Below are positions 20,759 to 30,396 of a stretch of DNA of 64,000 nucleotides, piece by piece. Source of the stretch: Nitrospirota bacterium (GTDB lineage Bacteria; Nitrospirota; Nitrospiria; Nitrospirales; Nitrospiraceae); assembly GCA_040757595.1 (NCBI GenBank), contig JBFLWP010000019.1, forward strand, positions 1 to 64,000, read 5' to 3'. The position numbers and the translations under genes were made by a program. How positions within the stretch are numbered: the stretch's first letter is position 1; the number at the start of each line of letters is the position of its first letter. A model generated the notes under the pieces. It had not been told where the DNA came from. It did no database searches and saw only the letters and a list, made by a program, of their open reading frames with translations.

Positions 20759-21547
20759 ATGCGCGCGCAGGCTTTGCCAGTTGGTTGCCTGGTCCAGGCG
20801 CTCCTCCTGCCAGTGATCGGAGGCGCCTCGGTGGCCTGGGCCCAGCCAGACCCATCGCTGGAGGAGATGGTCCTGATTCCGGCCGGCCCGTTCACGATGG
20901 GCGGCGATTTCGACGAGGAGCGACCTCGCCACCGGGTGACGGTGGATGCCTTCTGGATTGACCGGCTCGAAGCGACGAACGAGCAGTATGCGGCCTATCT
21001 GCGGGCGACCGGCGCGCCGGAGCCCCGGTACTGGAATAAGAGCGAGCGCTTTCACAGTGGGGAGAAGTTCCCGCGTTATCCGGTGGTCGGACTCTCCTGG
21101 TTCGAGGCCAAGGCGTTCTGCGAGTGGCAGGGCAAGCGCCTGCCGACGGAAGCCGAGTGGGAGAAGGCGGCGCGCGGCGGGCGGGAAGGGCTGGCCTTCC
21201 CCTGGGGGGATGAACCAGATCGGACGCGCGCCAACTACGAAGGACAGGGCACGATGCCGGTCGGAAGCTTTCCCCCCAATGGCTACGGCCTCTTCGACAT
21301 GAGCGGCAACGTCTGGGAATGGGTCGCGGACTGGTTCGAGGCGCGGTACTACGAACGCAGTCCGGAGACGAGCCCCTCTGGTCCCGAATCCGGCCAGGAG
21401 AAGGTCCTGCGCGGGGGATCATGGGTGGATGGGACCGGACCGAACCGGATCGCCCACCGCCATTGGTGTCCGCCGCAAGCGCAGTACAAGTGGCTTGGGG
21501 TACGGTGCGCGCGAGATCACGTTCTGACAACGGTTGAGATTCCCTAG
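20759..21547 (+). CDS. Secreted FGE/SUMF1-fold protein (paralog 3 of 4)
   Basis: 262 residues beginning directly after the preceding TAA. Signal peptide ending ASVAWAQ; FGE fold with [61 protein letters not shown] and WLGVRC. The catalytic Cys pair is absent, though one Cys (HRHWCPPQ) lies in the region. It is shorter than paralogs 1 and 2. It sits between a His-rich membrane protein and an NHL propeller. Confidence 0.86.
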   Translation: MRAQALPVGCLVQALLLPVIGGASVAWAQPDPSLEEMVLIPAGPFTMGGDFDEERPRHRVTVDAFWIDRLEATNEQYAAYLRATGAPEPRYWNKSERFHSGEKFPRYPVVGLSWFEAKAFCEWQGKRLPTEAEWEKAARGGREGLAFPWGDEPDRTRANYEGQGTMPVGSFPPNGYGLFDMSGNVWEWVADWFEARYYERSPETSPSGPESGQEKVLRGGSWVDGTGPNRIAHRHWCPPQAQYKWLGVRCARDHVLTTVEIP

Positions 21548-22762: not shown

Positions 22763-23548
22763 GTGCGGTTCCTGATTGCGAACGGTCCGCTCGTGGCTGT
22801 CCTGCTGTGGGCCTCAACGGCCTCAGCCCAGAGCCATCCGCCCGAGATCGTCGGCCGGGACGGAGCCCCGATGCGGCTGGTCCCAGCCGGAGAGTTCACG
22901 ATGGGCCATGCCAAGTGGGACGCGGACGAGCAACCGGTCCACCGCGTGTATCTGGACGCGTTTTACATGGATCGGCACGAGGCCACGACGTCGCAGTACG
23001 CCAGATTCTTTCAGGAGACCGGTCGTGAATCGCCCACGCAGTGGAAAGACGTGAACCCGGCGACCGACGGGGAGCGTCCCGTGGTCGGCGTCACGTGGTA
23101 TGATGCGGACGCCTACTGCCGTCATTATGGAAAGCGCCTCCCGACCGAAGCGGAATGGGAAAAAGCGGCTCGGGGTACGGACGGACGGCTGTTCCCCTGG
23201 GGCAACGAAGAGCCGACCCGCCTCCGCGCGAATTTCGGCGCGGCCTGGACCGGATACGAGACCTTCGTTCCCGTCGGAAGCCTGGAGGCGGGCAAGAGTC
23301 CCTACGAGATCGCCGACCTGGCTGGCAATGTCTGGGAATGGGTGGCGGACTGGTATGATGTGCACTATTACAAGAGCAGCCCGGATCGGAACCCGACCGG
23401 CCCCGCGCGTGGCGGGAGCAAAGTGCTCCGCGGCGGCTCGTGGTATCACATGCTGTATGACCTCCGTTCGACAAACCGCAACTACCTCGCGCCGACGAGC
23501 GCGCGCTTCGACCTCGGCTTCCGGTGTGCCCAGGATGTCCCGCACTAG
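22763..23548 (+). CDS. Secreted FGE/SUMF1-fold protein (paralog 4 of 4)
   Basis: GTG start; 261 residues. Signal peptide (VAVLLWASTASAQ), then [58 protein letters not shown] and LGFRC. The segment holding the catalytic Cys pair in true FGEs reads YDLRSTNRNYLAPTSARFD, without Cys. It ends the + strand cluster; the next gene converges 30 bp away. Confidence 0.86.
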   Translation: MRFLIANGPLVAVLLWASTASAQSHPPEIVGRDGAPMRLVPAGEFTMGHAKWDADEQPVHRVYLDAFYMDRHEATTSQYARFFQETGRESPTQWKDVNPATDGERPVVGVTWYDADAYCRHYGKRLPTEAEWEKAARGTDGRLFPWGNEEPTRLRANFGAAWTGYETFVPVGSLEAGKSPYEIADLAGNVWEWVADWYDVHYYKSSPDRNPTGPARGGSKVLRGGSWYHMLYDLRSTNRNYLAPTSARFDLGFRCAQDVPH

Positions 23549-23578: not shown

Positions 23579-25450
23579 CTATCCCTTCTCGGCGACGAAG
23601 ACGGCCAGCGCGGGGTTCAGGCGCGTTCGAGGATGCAAGCGTAGGTGTTCGAGCAGCAATGGAAGCCGCGTGAAATCCTCCACGCCGGCGGTGTCGACCA
23701 GTCGCAGCCCATGTGCCGCGAAGGCGGGGCGGAGTTCCCTGGGCCCGGCCACGACGGCGAGGCCGGTGCGGACCAGGGCCGAGCTGACGTCCGCCACCAT
23801 TGCGCTGCACCGTTCCCGATCGCGAAAGCACGCAAACGGAATCCAGCAATAGAGCAGCTCATACTCTCGGCAATAGGCCGCTGGCCGCCCCTGGTCGGCC
23901 GGGAGGAAGCGCGTGTCTTGCACCGCCGACAACCGGCCGGCCTGGGCGGCCCGGTCCCAGAGCACCTGGGCCTGTTTTTGCGCCCATTCGGCGCTTCGGA
24001 AGAGCACGGTATGGTGCCGGGTGTAGTCCTGATCAATACACCCGGCGATCACCGCATCCAGCCCATCAATCAAGACCCGCCTGATCCAGCCGAGCCTCCC
24101 GAGAAGGTCAGAAAGCGCATTGAAGCTCGCAAAGATTTGCTCCAGGACGAAGGGCTGTGTGGATAGTTCCTCCACCTCCGTCTCATCATCCGGATAGAAG
24201 AGGGCCAGCGAGTGCGCGCGGCCGGGATCGAGAGACGGCGGGTGGCCGCAGAAGAAGACGCGCCAATCGAAGGGATATTTCTCCGGTCGGGACGGAGGCG
24301 TATCGCCAGTGATACCCCAGGCGGGATCGAGATCAAAGGACTGGACCGAGAGGCCATCCCGCAGCCGCAGGCGGTTCCCCGCGACGACCACCGCCCGATC
24401 GCACGAGACCCAGCTCCGCGTGCCGGGCGCGACATAGGGAACGCCTGCCGGGTCGTTCATCACCGTGACCTTCCTGGCCATCCCGCCTTGGACCGTGACA
24501 GCGAGGTGCCTGGACCAATCAACGTAGCGCCATGGCGGGTCGGACCTCGGCCACCAGGCGATCTGACTCGCCCGCGACGGATCCACGAACCAGTCGTGGG
24601 GATCGGCTCCATCGGGTGCCTCCGGCCGGAAGAATGACGAGAACAGCCCGTAGGCCGGCTCCGAAGGATAAGTTGGGAGACCGCGATAGTGCAGGGGTAC
24701 GGTGCCATCGGTCCGGCGCTGATCGTCACACAATCCCCAAATCAACTCGAAAACTGCGCTGCCGGTTCCGGGGAGGGTGGATTGGAACAACTCCACCACG
24801 TTGAGGAGGTTAAGCCTATGCCAAGGCATGGCCCCCATGTAGCTGAGGAAGGTTCGGCTGTCGAAGGTTCCGTCCTCCAGTAGGTAGAGCCCATCCTTCT
24901 TGAGGTGGATCGTGACCCGATCATCGCCGTCTTGCTCGAAGCTCTCGTCCGGGAAAAAGTACCGCACATCCTCGAGCGGCACACGCCAAGCCCGAGCGGC
25001 CATGCGGCGTAGGCATTCAGGCGCCTCGAACATCACGGTGGGCCGCCGACCGAGGTCCAGGGTGGTCCTGTGGACGACCGCTTCCGGCAGCAAGCCGATC
25101 CACAGGAGCGAGTCCAGACGAATACGAGCGCGAGCCAGTTTGAACCCTCCAGAGCCGTCCGGCTGCCATTCACACTCGTGCAACACAGTCCCGGAAGGGT
25201 CGGTGCAGAGCACCCGCCGCCCATGCGCACCGTAGACGATCCGGTGACCGGTGGCCCAGATCACGAAGCCCGGCCCATCCCCGCCCAGACGGTAACACAC
25301 GCCTCCGTCGAAGTCGGCCGGCAAGAGATCCGCCCGCCGCACCGTCAAGCACTCAAGAGCCTGATCGGTCGCGGGAAAGACCAGCCGGTCAATCGGCGAC
25401 GGCAGAAGAGAAAACACGTTCGCTGGCATGGGCCATTCCAACCAGACCAT
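23579..25450 (-). CDS. Large hypothetical protein, divergent from a PqqD/MBL gene
   Basis: 623 residues from the ATG at 25450; the longer frame to 25504 would run through a palindromic operator and is rejected. No signal peptide or clear motif; the protein is mixed alpha/beta with many Trp and Arg. The C-terminal 60 residues (ALVRTGLAVVAGPRELRPAF ... LNPALAVFVAEKG) loosely resemble the end of a class I methyltransferase, but no SAM motif is visible. It shares a 104-bp promoter region with 25555-27219 and so probably works with it. Function unknown. Confidence 0.7.
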   Translation of the reverse strand: MVWLEWPMPANVFSLLPSPIDRLVFPATDQALECLTVRRADLLPADFDGGVCYRLGGDGPGFVIWATGHRIVYGAHGRRVLCTDPSGTVLHECEWQPDGSGGFKLARARIRLDSLLWIGLLPEAVVHRTTLDLGRRPTVMFEAPECLRRMAARAWRVPLEDVRYFFPDESFEQDGDDRVTIHLKKDGLYLLEDGTFDSRTFLSYMGAMPWHRLNLLNVVELFQSTLPGTGSAVFELIWGLCDDQRRTDGTVPLHYRGLPTYPSEPAYGLFSSFFRPEAPDGADPHDWFVDPSRASQIAWWPRSDPPWRYVDWSRHLAVTVQGGMARKVTVMNDPAGVPYVAPGTRSWVSCDRAVVVAGNRLRLRDGLSVQSFDLDPAWGITGDTPPSRPEKYPFDWRVFFCGHPPSLDPGRAHSLALFYPDDETEVEELSTQPFVLEQIFASFNALSDLLGRLGWIRRVLIDGLDAVIAGCIDQDYTRHHTVLFRSAEWAQKQAQVLWDRAAQAGRLSAVQDTRFLPADQGRPAAYCREYELLYCWIPFACFRDRERCSAMVADVSSALVRTGLAVVAGPRELRPAFAAHGLRLVDTAGVEDFTRLPLLLEHLRLHPRTRLNPALAVFVAEKG

Positions 25451-25477
25451 AAAGGAAGACCACCCTGGATGACCACG

Positions 25478-25504
25478 ATCAATAATAATATTGATGATTG
25501 TCAT
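25478..25504. promoter_or_regulatory. Divergent-promoter operator: perfect palindrome and FNR-like box
   Basis: ATCAATA-ATAA-TATTGAT at 25478-25495 is a perfect 7-bp inverted repeat. It overlaps TTGAT-GATT-GTCAT at 25491-25504, which matches the FNR-like box of composite site 3 at every conserved position. It sits in the AT-rich region between the two divergent genes, so one regulator could control both. The ATAGGYC palindrome of the other sites is missing here. Confidence 0.6.
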
Positions 25505-25554
25505 AAGGTGGAACGCCGTCTTCTGGCATTAGTATTTGCTAAGGGTTTGATCTC

Positions 25555-27219
25555 GTGGATACTTTCTGGAGCAACTTTTCCGGCCGCCAGTACTTCGGCT
25601 TGGCTCCCTGGGTGTGGATTGAGTTCGAGAGTTCCGAGCCGCCTGGCCCGTTCCCGTTTCTCGGCGGGATCGCGCCTCGTGTCGCGGCCGGGCTCCATGA
25701 AGTCCATCAGCACCTCTCGGGCGCCATTGACATCGTGATCGGCGACGTGTTCGCCGGCCGCGCCCGAGCCGACGATCCGTTGATCCGAACGCGGCTGGAA
25801 GACGCCTATGCCGAGGTGGTTCGCTCGCGGCCCCGTTTGCGCCGGATGATTCGATGCGGGCGCAGCCCGGACGGCGCCTTTTACTGGGAGTACCCGTTGG
25901 ACGCCGGGCAGTCCGCCCCTATCCGCTATTCCGGCCTGCGCCTCTTCAACGCGGCAACCAGGCAAACCGTCTCGGTCGGCCTGGATCAGCATCCGGCCCA
26001 CGCGGTCGGACGATGGATCGGCTGTCTGGACGGAACCCAAACGGTCGGGGACCTCCAGGCGGAGTTGCGGCGGCTGGGCATGGTGTTCGGTCCCCAGTTG
26101 GCAGCCTACCTGACCCGCCTCACGGAGCGGCTTGACAGCCTCGGCGGGCTCGCCCCCTCCTCGGATTCTTCGATCCGGGAGCAATGGCTGCGGGCGACCC
26201 AGGATCGCGACATGGTGCACCTCGGCCACGCCGCCCTGCTGTATCGGCAGCGTGACCGATTCCTGCTCTTCGATCCCTGGCTCATTCCTTGGTTCGCCGA
26301 AGCTCCGGTGCCATCCCTCTGGACGACCCTGCTGCCGAAGCCGGCCGCGATTTTCCTCACGCACGACCATGACGACCATGTGGATCCCCGCACGTTGCTC
26401 GCCTTTCCGAAGGAAACCCCGGTGATCGTACCCAGCCGGGTCAATCGCCGCGCCCTGTTCTACGACTACCGGGCGCTGCTAAGCGGGCTCGGCTTTACGA
26501 ACATCGTCGAACTGGCTCACGGCGATGCGTGGCCATTCGATGGCGGGGCCGTCGTCGCGGTCCCGTTCTACGGAGAATGCGCGTGCGAACTGGGCATGCC
26601 CCGCAACTGCTATCTGATCGTGGACCGGGGGTGCAACAGCCTGATCCACGTGGACAGCGGGCCCACGAACGCCGGCGACAACGTGGTCCAAGACGGAGTC
26701 ATTGACGAACTCGTCCGGCGGCACGGGCCGATCAGCACGGTCTACGCCCAGCCTGGTCAACTGCTGGAGCTGCGGGCTTTCGCCGCCTATGCGTGCCTCT
26801 CGCCCCCAGGCCGGTGGCTGGAGGTCGGGGAAAATTGCTGCGTGGCACCGGACTATCTGTCACAGCTGGTGGCGAGCGCACGGGCGCGTCTGCTCGTCGC
26901 CTACGCTAACGGCGGAGCCGACTGGCTGCCCGACCACCCGGTGTTCGTCTTCAGCGGAAGGAACCGGGCGTTGCGCGACCTGGTCACCGCCCACTGGTGG
27001 CCATTGGAGGCACTGGAAGAACCCTTGCGCGCGCAGGGCTGCCATCTTCATCAGAGTTGCGCGCTCGACGTGGTCCGACAGGAGCCAGACGGAAGCCCAG
27101 CGGTCTGGCCTGCCGCAGCTCCCGCACCCGACCAGCTTTACCGGCTGGACCATGGCAGCCCGCCGGTCATGAGGCCGCATACGACCACCTGCTCCGCCGC
27201 GCAAGGGCCATCCTGTTGA
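25555..27219 (+). CDS. PqqD-like plus metallo-beta-lactamase-fold protein
   Basis: 554 residues from GTG 25555. The first 100 residues are unassigned. Residues about 135-200 (HAVGRWIGCLDGTQTVGDLQ and following helices) resemble a PqqD/RRE-type winged helix. A metallo-beta-lactamase fold follows, with THDHDDHVDPRTLLAFP (HxHxDH) and later IHVDSGPTNAGDN as second metal ligands. PqqD-like modules bind precursor peptides in RiPP pathways, and PqqB is also of this metallo-fold, but no precursor or radical SAM gene is adjacent. A Cys-rich C-terminal tail closes the protein. It is divergent from the unknown gene 23579-25450. Confidence 0.7.
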   Translation: MDTFWSNFSGRQYFGLAPWVWIEFESSEPPGPFPFLGGIAPRVAAGLHEVHQHLSGAIDIVIGDVFAGRARADDPLIRTRLEDAYAEVVRSRPRLRRMIRCGRSPDGAFYWEYPLDAGQSAPIRYSGLRLFNAATRQTVSVGLDQHPAHAVGRWIGCLDGTQTVGDLQAELRRLGMVFGPQLAAYLTRLTERLDSLGGLAPSSDSSIREQWLRATQDRDMVHLGHAALLYRQRDRFLLFDPWLIPWFAEAPVPSLWTTLLPKPAAIFLTHDHDDHVDPRTLLAFPKETPVIVPSRVNRRALFYDYRALLSGLGFTNIVELAHGDAWPFDGGAVVAVPFYGECACELGMPRNCYLIVDRGCNSLIHVDSGPTNAGDNVVQDGVIDELVRRHGPISTVYAQPGQLLELRAFAAYACLSPPGRWLEVGENCCVAPDYLSQLVASARARLLVAYANGGADWLPDHPVFVFSGRNRALRDLVTAHWWPLEALEEPLRAQGCHLHQSCALDVVRQEPDGSPAVWPAAAPAPDQLYRLDHGSPPVMRPHTTTCSAAQGPSC

Positions 27220-27309: not shown

Positions 27310-28020
27310 ATGAAACGGAAACCCTGTCTCATCGAGGATTGCGGAACTTGCACCTTCCGGGCCAAATCCGTGGTGTGCGACCTCGAGGGAGACGCACTCG
27401 CCGCGTTCCAGAAAATCAAGCGCTCTCTCCAGTACGAGCCCCATCAAGTGGTCTTCTACGAAGGCCACGCCTGCCTGGGCCTGTACCTGTTATGCGCGGG
27501 CAAGGTCAAGCTCACCCGGTCCTCGAGCCGTGGGCAGCGGCAGATCGTGCGGATCCTGGAGTCCGGCGAATTGATCGAGAAGCATGCGTTCCGGGATGGG
27601 GCGATTCATGAGGTCACCTGCGAGACCCTGGAAGTGTCCCAGATCTGCCTGATTGAGAAGGAGCTATACCTGGCGCTGGTGAGGCGCCACAGCGACCTCG
27701 CCCTCAGGCTGATCCAACTCTTGAGCCGCGAGCTCGGCATGCATATCAACCAGCTCGACCAGTTCACCTTCAAGCTCGCCCGCGAGCGGCTGGCGAGCCT
27801 GCTGTTGGAGCTGGGCGAGCGGTTCGGCAGCGAGGCTCGCCAGGGAGTCCGGGTCGGCATCACCCTCAAGCGCGAGGAGGTCGCCGAAATGGCCGGCGTC
27901 ACGGTCGAAACCGTCATCCGGCTCCTCGGAGCCTTTCGGGACGAAGGCTTGATCTCCCTTGACGGCCGTTCCATCACCCTGCTGAACCCGGATCGTCTGA
28001 CCAAGATTGCCCAGCGGTAG
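27310..28020 (+). CDS. CRP/FNR-family regulator, FNR-like with N-terminal cysteines (copy 2)
   Basis: 236 residues, colinear paralog of 6513-7223. N-terminal C6, C11-x2-C14-x8-C23; shared core VVFYEGHACLGLYLLCAGKV; HTH KREEVAEMAGVTVETVIRLL, with E-x2-I-R in the recognition helix against E-x2-C-R in copy 1. The single changed residue could tune specificity between the two. A composite operator lies 88 bp downstream, before the desaturase, as for copy 1 and the hemerythrin. Confidence 0.87.
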   Translation: MKRKPCLIEDCGTCTFRAKSVVCDLEGDALAAFQKIKRSLQYEPHQVVFYEGHACLGLYLLCAGKVKLTRSSSRGQRQIVRILESGELIEKHAFRDGAIHEVTCETLEVSQICLIEKELYLALVRRHSDLALRLIQLLSRELGMHINQLDQFTFKLARERLASLLLELGERFGSEARQGVRVGITLKREEVAEMAGVTVETVIRLLGAFRDEGLISLDGRSITLLNPDRLTKIAQR

Positions 28021-28107: not shown

Positions 28108-28147
28108 ATAGGTCCAACGGTCCACTCAAAACGTTGATCTCCGTCAT
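28108..28147 (+). promoter_or_regulatory. Composite operator 3: partial palindrome plus FNR-like box
   Basis: ATAGGTC-CAAC-GGTCCAC at 28108-28125 keeps the left half-site and a degraded right half. After 8 bp comes TTGAT-CTCC-GTCAT at 28134-28147, followed by AGGCCGGGCGGG as at site 2. The 309-bp gap 28021-28329 otherwise holds only a short repeat (inverted copy of 13622-13634) at 28044-28056. It points to the desaturase gene. Confidence 0.6.
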
Positions 28148-28329
28148 AGGCCGGGCGGGCGAACTGGAGTAAGAGTCGGCCCCAATTCCCGGGACTCCTG
28201 TGCAGTTGCCAAGGGGAGCTCGGCACACGGATCGGGGTGCGGTGCTCGGGGGGGAATCTGCGTTTTGGCTGGTGTCCGGTTGGTGACCGTTCCCTATGCC
28301 GTGCGTCTCGCGCCTTCACGACAGGTCCA

Positions 28330-29220
28330 ATGGCCAGCGAGAAGACAGTTCGACAACAAAACTCTCGGATCAATCTGAACCGGTTGGATGTTCCGGCAAG
28401 CGCACTGTTTATCCTCGTGACCGTGACCGCCCTGGTTGGGGTACCCTTGTTCGGCTCCCTGTACGGGTACACTTGGCTGGACTGGACGCTCTGTGGGATG
28501 CTTTACGCAATCAGTGGCCTCGGCATCACCGTGGGCTACCACCGTCTCATCGCGCACGGGAGCTTTCAGTGCCCAGACTGGGTCAAGGCTCTGCTGCTCG
28601 TTGCGGGAGGATGGACCATGGAAAATTCGGCGTTGAAATGGGCCGCTGACCACGCGCGCCATCATGCCCGTGTGGATACGGAGGACGATCCGTACAACGC
28701 GAGAAAAGGGTTCTGGCACAGCCACTGCGGGTGGGTCTTCTTGAAAGACACACGCTACAGCGAGCAGTACGCTCCCTGGCTACGGAAGGATCGCGTCGTG
28801 CTCTGGCAGCACCGTTGGTACCCTCTGATCGTCCTCTCCGGATTGGCCCTGCCGTTCATCGCCGGCTGGCTCGCGGGGGGCAGCTTGCGCGGACTCGGCT
28901 GCTTCCTGCTGGCCGGAGTCGCGCGGGTGTTTTTGGTCCTCAACTCCACGTTTTGCATCAATTCCGTCTGCCACCTATGGGGCCGCCAACCTTACGACCA
29001 AACCAACACCAGCCGGGACAGTTGGTGGGTCTCACTGGTCACGTTCGGGGAGGGGTATCACAACTACCACCACGCCTTTCCACGGGATTACCGTAACGGG
29101 CCCCGGTGGTACAACTTCGACCCGTCCAAGTGGATGATCTTCACCCTGTCGCGGACGGGGCTGGCCAGAAACCTCATCAGGCACGATCAGGCGTCACATG
29201 CGACGGCCGCAGGTGACTGA
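28330..29220 (+). CDS. Acyl-CoA/acyl-lipid delta-9-type fatty acid desaturase
   Basis: 296 residues with the three His boxes of membrane desaturases: HRLIAH, HARHH and HNYHH, placed between about four hydrophobic segments (ALFILVTVTALVGVPLF, GMLYAISGLGITVGY, WYPLIVLSGLALPFIAGW, LGCFLLAGVARVFLVL). The enzyme is diiron and O2-dependent, which fits an FNR-like operator upstream. The ATG at 28330 is preferred over an earlier in-frame GTG-type start. A strong hairpin lies 30 bp after the stop. Confidence 0.88.
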   Translation: MASEKTVRQQNSRINLNRLDVPASALFILVTVTALVGVPLFGSLYGYTWLDWTLCGMLYAISGLGITVGYHRLIAHGSFQCPDWVKALLLVAGGWTMENSALKWAADHARHHARVDTEDDPYNARKGFWHSHCGWVFLKDTRYSEQYAPWLRKDRVVLWQHRWYPLIVLSGLALPFIAGWLAGGSLRGLGCFLLAGVARVFLVLNSTFCINSVCHLWGRQPYDQTNTSRDSWWVSLVTFGEGYHNYHHAFPRDYRNGPRWYNFDPSKWMIFTLSRTGLARNLIRHDQASHATAAGD

Positions 29221-29589: not shown

Positions 29590-30396
29590 CTACTGGTTCG
29601 GAAACAGGTAGTCCACTCCGCAGGGCAGCGCGCCGAGCCACTGGAGAAATTTCTGGACCTCCTCGCCTCGGAAGATCGCGCCATGCTGCGGGACGAGGGC
29701 CGTGATCGGGAGTCCCGCGACGCTGCGGATGAAGGCCGAGACCGCGCGATTGGAGCTCATGTAGCGCTGGTGAAAGCCCCGCATGGCCTTGACCTGCTGA
29801 TCCCAGTCCTCGATCACCAGCCGCGGCTTGCCGTCCGCGTACACGGCCGCCCCGATGTCGCCGGTGAAGAGGAAGCCGCTCACGCTGTCGAAGATCACCA
29901 TGTTCCCCGGAGAGTGCAGGTAGGGGGCCGAGAGACACCTGAGCTGCCCCCCGCTCTTCAGCGGCAGGGCCAGCCCGTCGTCCTTCATGAGCCGGTAGTT
30001 GACGTTGTACGCCATGTAGTGCGGCATGAACCGCTGCCAGAGGGACGGGCAGATCACTGCGATCTGGGGGTTGAACTCCAGCCAGGAGGAGATCGAGGCG
30101 CACACGTCGGGATCCTGGTGGCTGAAGAGGAGATGGGTCAAGGACTGGGCGGAGAACACCGAGTTGATCTTTTCCTGGACGGGGACAAACCGGTCGTACC
30201 CGCCCGGCTCCAGCAGGTAGCCCTCGCCCCGGTCCACCAGGAGGTAGGCGTTGCACTCCACCTCCTCTCCGCCGGTGACGGTGCCGACCCAATAGACCTG
30301 GTGCTCGGGCGTCTGATAGAGCGGAATCGCCTTGGTGTCGTCCAGGCCGACGTTGGACAGTGCCGAAAGATGATCCGCTTGCAATGTCGGTTGCAT
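29590..30396 (-). CDS. MBL-fold protein of the ODP/flavodiiron-like type
   Basis: 268 residues. LLFSHQDPDVCASI replaces the usual HxHxDH with the SHQDPDV form seen in the oxygen-binding diiron (ODP) and flavodiiron-like branch. LHSPGNMVIFDSVSGFLFTGDIGAA and LVPQHGAIFRGEEV give the further metal ligands. No flavodoxin domain, so it is a stand-alone core. ODP proteins bind O2 or sense it; hydrolase activity is not expected. It is divergent from a Cys-rich LuxR regulator, which may use it as partner. Confidence 0.78.
   Translation of the reverse strand: MQPTLQADHLSALSNVGLDDTKAIPLYQTPEHQVYWVGTVTGGEEVECNAYLLVDRGEGYLLEPGGYDRFVPVQEKINSVFSAQSLTHLLFSHQDPDVCASISSWLEFNPQIAVICPSLWQRFMPHYMAYNVNYRLMKDDGLALPLKSGGQLRCLSAPYLHSPGNMVIFDSVSGFLFTGDIGAAVYADGKPRLVIEDWDQQVKAMRGFHQRYMSSNRAVSAFIRSVAGLPITALVPQHGAIFRGEEVQKFLQWLGALPCGVDYLFPNQ

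Follow-up and report, generated by a model that had tools for sequence, protein, structure and literature searches.

Beta-hydroxylation by diiron enzymes with a metallo-beta-lactamase (MBL) fold is represented by CmlA, the chloramphenicol beta-hydroxylase (Protein Data Bank (PDB) 4jo0, 5kik and 5kil), and by FrsH, the leucine beta-hydroxylase of FR900359 (PDB 8a90). In PMC7794379, CmlA is described as the single characterised member of its enzyme type before FrsH, with characterisation on nonribosomal peptide synthetase (NRPS) lines, and the substrates of both enzymes as T-domain bound. Our literature searches found no paper linking CmlA-like enzymes to Nitrospira; three papers that mention both are, judging from titles and abstracts, reviews or studies of resistomes. 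Here we describe two divergent genes in a stretch of 64,000 nucleotides (the window; contig JBFLWP010000019.1) from the 3.37 Mb genome of a Nitrospirota bacterium of the order Nitrospirales. Gene A (25555-27219, + strand) has a GTG start with AAGGG upstream and encodes a protein of 554 amino acids, a putative CmlA/FrsH-type MBL-fold diiron oxygenase, and gene B (23579-25450, - strand) encodes a protein of 623 amino acids that is specific to the order. With moderate confidence, we propose that A and B form a two-protein module, confined to Nitrospirales among the sampled Nitrospirota, in which A acts as a dinuclear iron oxygenase dependent on O2 and B is its dedicated partner, the window carrying a diverged second copy. 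The basis for this is the predicted fold and ligand pattern of A, the co-occurrence of the two genes, their tandem linkage in one family of the order (f3) and the finding of no condensation domain in this genome.

The relationship of A to CmlA and FrsH was seen at the levels of sequence, profile and predicted fold, and A is not a generic metallo-hydrolase in our reading. A phmmer search of the PDB with A gave CmlA first (1e-7) and FrsH next (4.3e-6), and a profile of 37 A sequences gave CmlA at 3.6e-12 and FrsH at 2.6e-10; the protein ranked after them reached 0.002. An AlphaFold2 (AF2) model, built from the window sequence and its relatives in a named genome collection, reached a mean predicted local distance difference test value (pLDDT) of 80.2. 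VIA-align matched this model best to FrsH (Z 23.4, 383 residues aligned, root mean square deviation (rmsd) 3.9) and then to CmlA (Z 22.5 and 21.0), in both cases along residues 6-509, while the top entry with only an MBL domain (Z 19.3) covered residues 205-521; in Foldseek, CmlA and FrsH occupied ranks 1-5, CmlA at 1.3e-16. The MBL-fold domain itself extends over residues ~216-532 (26200-27150, +), with fold matches inside residues 205-533 and a Lactamase_B_2 match of 1.6e-5 that lies below the curated cut-off.

The HxHxDH metallo-fold attributed to A in an original prediction, made from the letters of the window, is supported by these profile and fold matches and by the model. The motif corresponds to H270-D-H272-D-D274-H275, and the seven putative ligands (H270, H272, D274, H275, E341, D367 and H461) are invariant in 37/37 sequences, and likewise in 36/36 of a second set that overlaps the first in part. 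In the alignment, E341 falls at the position that is changed in entry 5kil (CmlA E377D). The histidine of MBL hydrolases is replaced in A by this Glu, and a bridging Asp and a late His are also present, with D403 and H468 as their counterparts in CmlA. A shares with CmlA the MBL fold, the HxHxDH motif, the Glu and Asp ligand positions and a whole-chain fold match, and would be expected to bind iron and to catalyse an oxygenase reaction. It differs from CmlA in having no detectable CmlA_N domain, in an identity of 16-19% in the fold alignments, in being paired with B, and in belonging to a genome with no detected NRPS condensation domain; FrsH, its best VIA match, works with an NRPS (PMC7794379). 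We regard the A proteins as a new subfamily within a known kind of enzyme, present across the order and accompanied by an orphan protein.

The module similar to PqqD or to the recognition elements (RRE) of ribosomally synthesised and post-translationally modified peptides (RiPPs) that the original prediction gave to A would lie ahead of the MBL domain, at residues ~111-200 (25885-26154, +). The AF2 model has a predicted beta-hairpin and then three helices at residues 125-195, as in PqqD/RRE domains. With a profile made from 13 PqqD-type sequences of Nitrospirota, hhalign gave 62% for residues 110-205 and 57% for residues 95-205, with a local match over 43 columns, whereas four other parts of A, taken as controls, stayed at 0.1-0.4%. 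By contrast, the Pfam PqqD model gave no match in A at E 1, and the window copy has a 4-residue insertion. The fold and the profile match agree with the module predicted earlier and the Pfam search does not, so that a PqqD-like fold in A is a lead, not proof.

The distribution of both genes was analyzed in a sample of 295 Nitrospirota genomes, in which strong matches were counted. A was present in 95 genomes and B in 91: 88 carried both, 7 only A, 3 only B and 197 neither, with one genome (G161) left out of the A count for having only a weak fragment (3.5e-7). All 98 genomes with A or B belong to the order Nitrospirales, and no strong match was found in the other 197. Within a sample of 97 genomes of the order, 82 had both genes, 6 only A, 4 only B and 5 neither; four of these last five make up the entire sample of family f40, and some of the cases with a single gene are fragments at contig ends. 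On the basis of this order-wide co-occurrence, a single node probably accounts for the gain or loss of both A and B. In the named genome collection, the best 80 of 168 related stretches were nearly all titled Nitrospira, Nitrospirae, Nitrospiraceae or similar, including N. moscoviensis (L140). The exceptions among these 80 were one Nitrospinota (L167), one Omnitrophota (L179) and one Nitrosospira (L165), whose A genes show 55-58% identity to that of the window, similar to the Nitrospirales ones, and whose titles are probably binning or label matters. In one genome (G135, C8:508992-510841), A is split into two frames, which may result from misassembly or be a genuine break.

Whether the two genes are neighbours elsewhere, a check proposed with the original prediction, has a two-sided answer. 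In family f3, B stands directly before A on the same strand in 5/5 genomes holding both (G282, G306, G308, G313 and G314), and the same tandem was found in the named loci L114, L116, L129, L139 and L179, of which at least one (L116) is a contig of the sampled genome G282. These tandem pairs have no other neighbour common to all of them. Outside f3 the genes lie mostly apart, as detailed below. The canonical B follows proA, encoding glutamate-5-semialdehyde dehydrogenase, in 19 of 27 B loci, with a median gap of 1 base in those 19 (e.g., L062:6825-8225), and precedes pyrR-pyrB-pyrC-carA-type genes. Since the pair of family f3 goes without those genes, this neighbourhood is treated as a matter of position only, and a functional connection of B with the synthesis of proline or pyrimidines was rejected.

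B had been described as a protein with no recognised domain, and our searches also assign it to no named family: the single protein had no match in Pfam, NCBIfam or the PDB, and its profile retrieved from the PDB a single chain, named ToxA protein, at E 0.93. The C-terminal part (residues 430-623; 23582-24163, -) gave 92.6% (E 4.5e-7) in hhalign against ten methyltransferases of its own genome, where the other three stretches of B gave at most 1%, and one of 33 B members matched Methyltransf_23 at 0.0012. This part is therefore similar by profile to class I S-adenosylmethionine methyltransferases, from which it differs in missing the glycine-rich motif I, absent from the aligned stretch in 33/33 members. 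The N-terminal half belongs to no known family. For the most conserved region of B, residues 185-300 (with VVELF, GTGSA, DDQ and YRGxPxYPS), no counterpart was found. No B was found in plasmids or phages. Regarding the start of B, its frame is open as far as an ATG at 25504, which would give 641 amino acids and a gap of 50 bp instead of 104 bp; as the alignment of most relatives to B begins only near residue 65, the start is given as either 25450 or 25504.

The genome of the window also carries the usual unlinked pair, with A at C12:21032 and B at C7:124328, to which the window copies show 58% (A) and 44% (B) identity. The window A and B form the longest end branches in both trees, and the window B groups with the f3 sequence in the B tree (96/97). 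As the putative ligands are kept, the window pair is probably a working, diverged copy, not a dead one. This second pair, the relationship to CmlA and FrsH, the order-wide co-occurrence, and the larger palindrome with its third box described below were all absent from the first reading of the window.

The two open reading frames lie at the positions first given for them and do diverge from a region of 104 bp, which contains, as predicted, a perfect 7-bp inverted repeat, ATCAATA (25478-25484) and TATTGAT (25489-25495), overlapped by an FNR-like box with 2 mismatches (25491-25504). The repeat as a signal by itself is not supported: 7-bp repeats with a spacer of up to 20 were found in 10% of shuffled versions of the region (Markov model) and 108/615 tiles of the window, and FNR-like boxes with up to 2 mismatches in 12% of the shuffles and 22/615 tiles, so each of them alone is not beyond chance. 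The repeat is the core of a 36-bp palindrome (25469-25504) made of two mirrored TTGAT-N4-GTCAT boxes, with 14 of 18 half-positions symmetric, a figure reached in 0.06% of the shuffles and at 3 of 63,964 window centres, and this is beyond chance. For the pattern TTGATNNNNGTCAW, 0.06 matches would be expected in the window and 3 were found, of which only the third (28134-28147, +) is independent, since the pattern was chosen after seeing the first two sites. This third box sits between the gene of a Crp/Fnr-family regulator (27310-28020, +; HTH_Crp_2 5.1e-19) and that of a fatty acid desaturase (28237-29220, +; FA_desaturase 7.4e-25), upstream of the latter, a candidate co-regulated gene. Genome-wide, 14 matches to the motif were found, against 1 for the reversed pattern.

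The regulator, a candidate binder of the boxes, matches an Fnr subfamily model at 2e-24 but below its cut-off, and contains Cys 6, 11, 14, 23, 104 and 113, of which the first four could hold an iron-sulfur cluster. PMC1274295 gives TTGATnnnnATCAA as the FNR/DNR site and TTGACnnnnGTCAA as the HcpR site, and because of these sequences the TTGAT-N4-GTCAT box is assigned to the FNR/DNR/HcpR kind. Judging from the motif counts, control of B, A and the desaturase through these boxes probably lies with the local Crp/Fnr protein. Adjoining the desaturase there is an MBL protein of the ODP family (29590-30396, -; PF19583, 6.6e-63); together with A, the desaturase and the Fnr-type regulator it forms a group of clustered proteins with links to oxygen. 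Two FGE-sulfatase-type genes (20759-21547 and 22763-23548, both +) lie near B.

As for the mechanism, A would use two irons and O2 to hydroxylate, or otherwise oxidise, a substrate presented by another macromolecule. The N-terminal domain of A, ending in PqqD-like helices in place of CmlA_N, probably docks that macromolecule, and B would interact with A and present, bind or further modify the substrate. The substrate may be aminoacyl or peptide-like, and its holder could be a free carrier, a peptide or B itself; an NRPS-bound substrate is unlikely in this genome because no condensation domain was found in it.

Several results weigh against an oxygenase with a dedicated partner. Pfam and NCBIfam gave for A only weak matches to generic MBL hydrolase models, all below curated cut-offs. 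Pfam CmlA_N (PF18456) had no match in A at E 1, while a cyanobacterial relative (L200) used as positive control matched at 6.7e-100; the domain was found in 0/97 genomes of the order, in a scan whose control genomes gave no match either. The ligand loops of the model include residues with pLDDT below 50 (273-275 and 342-345), and in the Foldseek superposition on CmlA the template modelling (TM) score was only 0.5, with rmsd up to 9.9, so that the likeness of the N-terminal fold is only loose. Outside f3, A and B are adjacent in just 1 of 77 genomes with both, which is the present one, and far apart in the other 76, and the co-occurrence of unlinked genes could reflect two independent functions of the order core. 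Moreover, the AF2 model of B is poor (pLDDT 43, from an alignment of six rows), and the 11 matches to the box in the rest of the genome did not resolve as promoters.

The generic hydrolase models and the mostly unlinked state of the two genes would both be expected if A were an ordinary MBL-fold small-molecule hydrolase, sharing only an ancestor with CmlA, and B an unrelated protein specific to the order. A VOC/glyoxalase-like gene directly upstream of the canonical A in 89/97 loci (median gap 53 nt, e.g., L140:7476-7904; some genomes are counted twice among these loci) would also suit a glyoxalase-like pathway. We consider this explanation improbable, as it has to face the invariant Glu at the position of CmlA E377, the first places of CmlA and FrsH in the sequence, profile and fold comparisons, and the way in which A and B co-occur and stand in tandem.

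The VOC linkage also speaks for a second alternative, in which A would oxidise an aminoacyl or acyl group borne by a free-standing carrier protein, much as CmlA acts on a group attached to an NRPS. The reaction would belong to a small pathway specific to the order, for a metabolite or cofactor, in which B and perhaps the VOC protein would also be needed. The VOC protein is a candidate third member of the pathway; its gene is missing beside the window copy and the f3 copies of A. Downstream of the canonical A, an epimerase gene was found in 70/97 loci, and in N. moscoviensis a gene of the FGE-sulfatase family (L140:6509-7483) is also located upstream of it. The whole-chain likeness of A to CmlA and FrsH, whose substrates are T-domain bound (PMC7794379), is in line with a carrier, and the missing CmlA_N match speaks against it, together with the lack of any carrier, adenylation or thioesterase domain among the ten scanned neighbours of canonical A or B. 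Condensation domains were matched in 47/97 genomes of the order, and the 50 without a match, like the genome of the window, add to the case against. We regard this alternative as somewhat unlikely.

The relatives of A outside the order point in a third direction. A plasmid search with A gave four records at 1e-5, and of the three relatives tested by hhalign the closest was the MBL protein of Streptomyces sp. ADI95-16 (99.2%, 2.7e-19), whose gene sits beside genes for lanthionine synthetase C, GrrM and lantibiotic dehydratase. It was followed by a plasmid protein of Pseudanabaena galeata (98.4%), encoded between Nif11 precursor peptides, LanM and 2-oxoglutarate (2OG) oxygenases, and only then by an NRPS-linked, CmlA_N-bearing protein of Gloeocapsa (97.6%, 2.6e-12). 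The alignments with the two RiPP-cluster proteins extend into the helices ahead of the MBL domain. In the fourth relative, from Streptomyces and not among the three tested, the aligned position lacks the Glu; its plasmid (L198:3683-12138) carries a nitroreductase-YcaO protein, the MBL protein, a short open reading frame, a DUF692 enzyme and LuxE/LuxC-type genes, in what looks like an unusual RiPP cluster. B was also compared with the orphan proteins beside RiPP-type MBLs, and a relationship was rejected (hhalign 0.1-0.2%).

These neighbourhoods, the closer match of the lanthipeptide-linked Streptomyces protein than of the Gloeocapsa one and the PqqD-like segment itself would agree with A being a RiPP tailoring oxygenase, whose PqqD-like module binds a leader and whose diiron site hydroxylates the core, with B as a second maturase and the precursor encoded elsewhere in the genome. 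To that extent the peptide-modifying pathway suggested at the outset gains from the two closest relatives. Nevertheless, unlike those relatives, A has no lanthipeptide or Nif11 genes found beside it, and the short precursor frames proposed to be nearby were not found: after clustering of the conserved short frames lying up to 900 nt from A or B, the 14 largest groups, read by eye, were all shadow frames of neighbouring genes such as VOC and epimerase and were rejected, so that no conserved short frame independent of other genes was found. The tandem pairs share no transporter or peptidase gene, the relatives, taken singly, gave no match to the PqqD profile, and near-universal presence in an order would be, from general knowledge, unusual for a RiPP. 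A role of A in RiPP tailoring is accordingly held to be unlikely.

For the biology of the order, a CmlA-type active site is a near-universal, mostly single-copy feature of the group that contains Nitrospira, including genomes with no detected NRPS condensation domain, and is tied there to a protein family (B) without known function, and the two genes can serve together as a marker for three families within the order. It is conceivable, although on balance doubtful, that Nitrospirales share an undescribed biosynthetic or protein-modifying step, carried out outside any NRPS by an RRE-bearing CmlA-type diiron oxygenase and a partner of new fold, and leading to an order-specific molecule or modification needed for the nitrifier lifestyle; the genome of the window would then have duplicated the pair and placed the copy under an Fnr-type switch responsive to oxygen or nitric oxide. 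If A is indeed an oxygenase, the order would have an unrecognised O2-dependent step.

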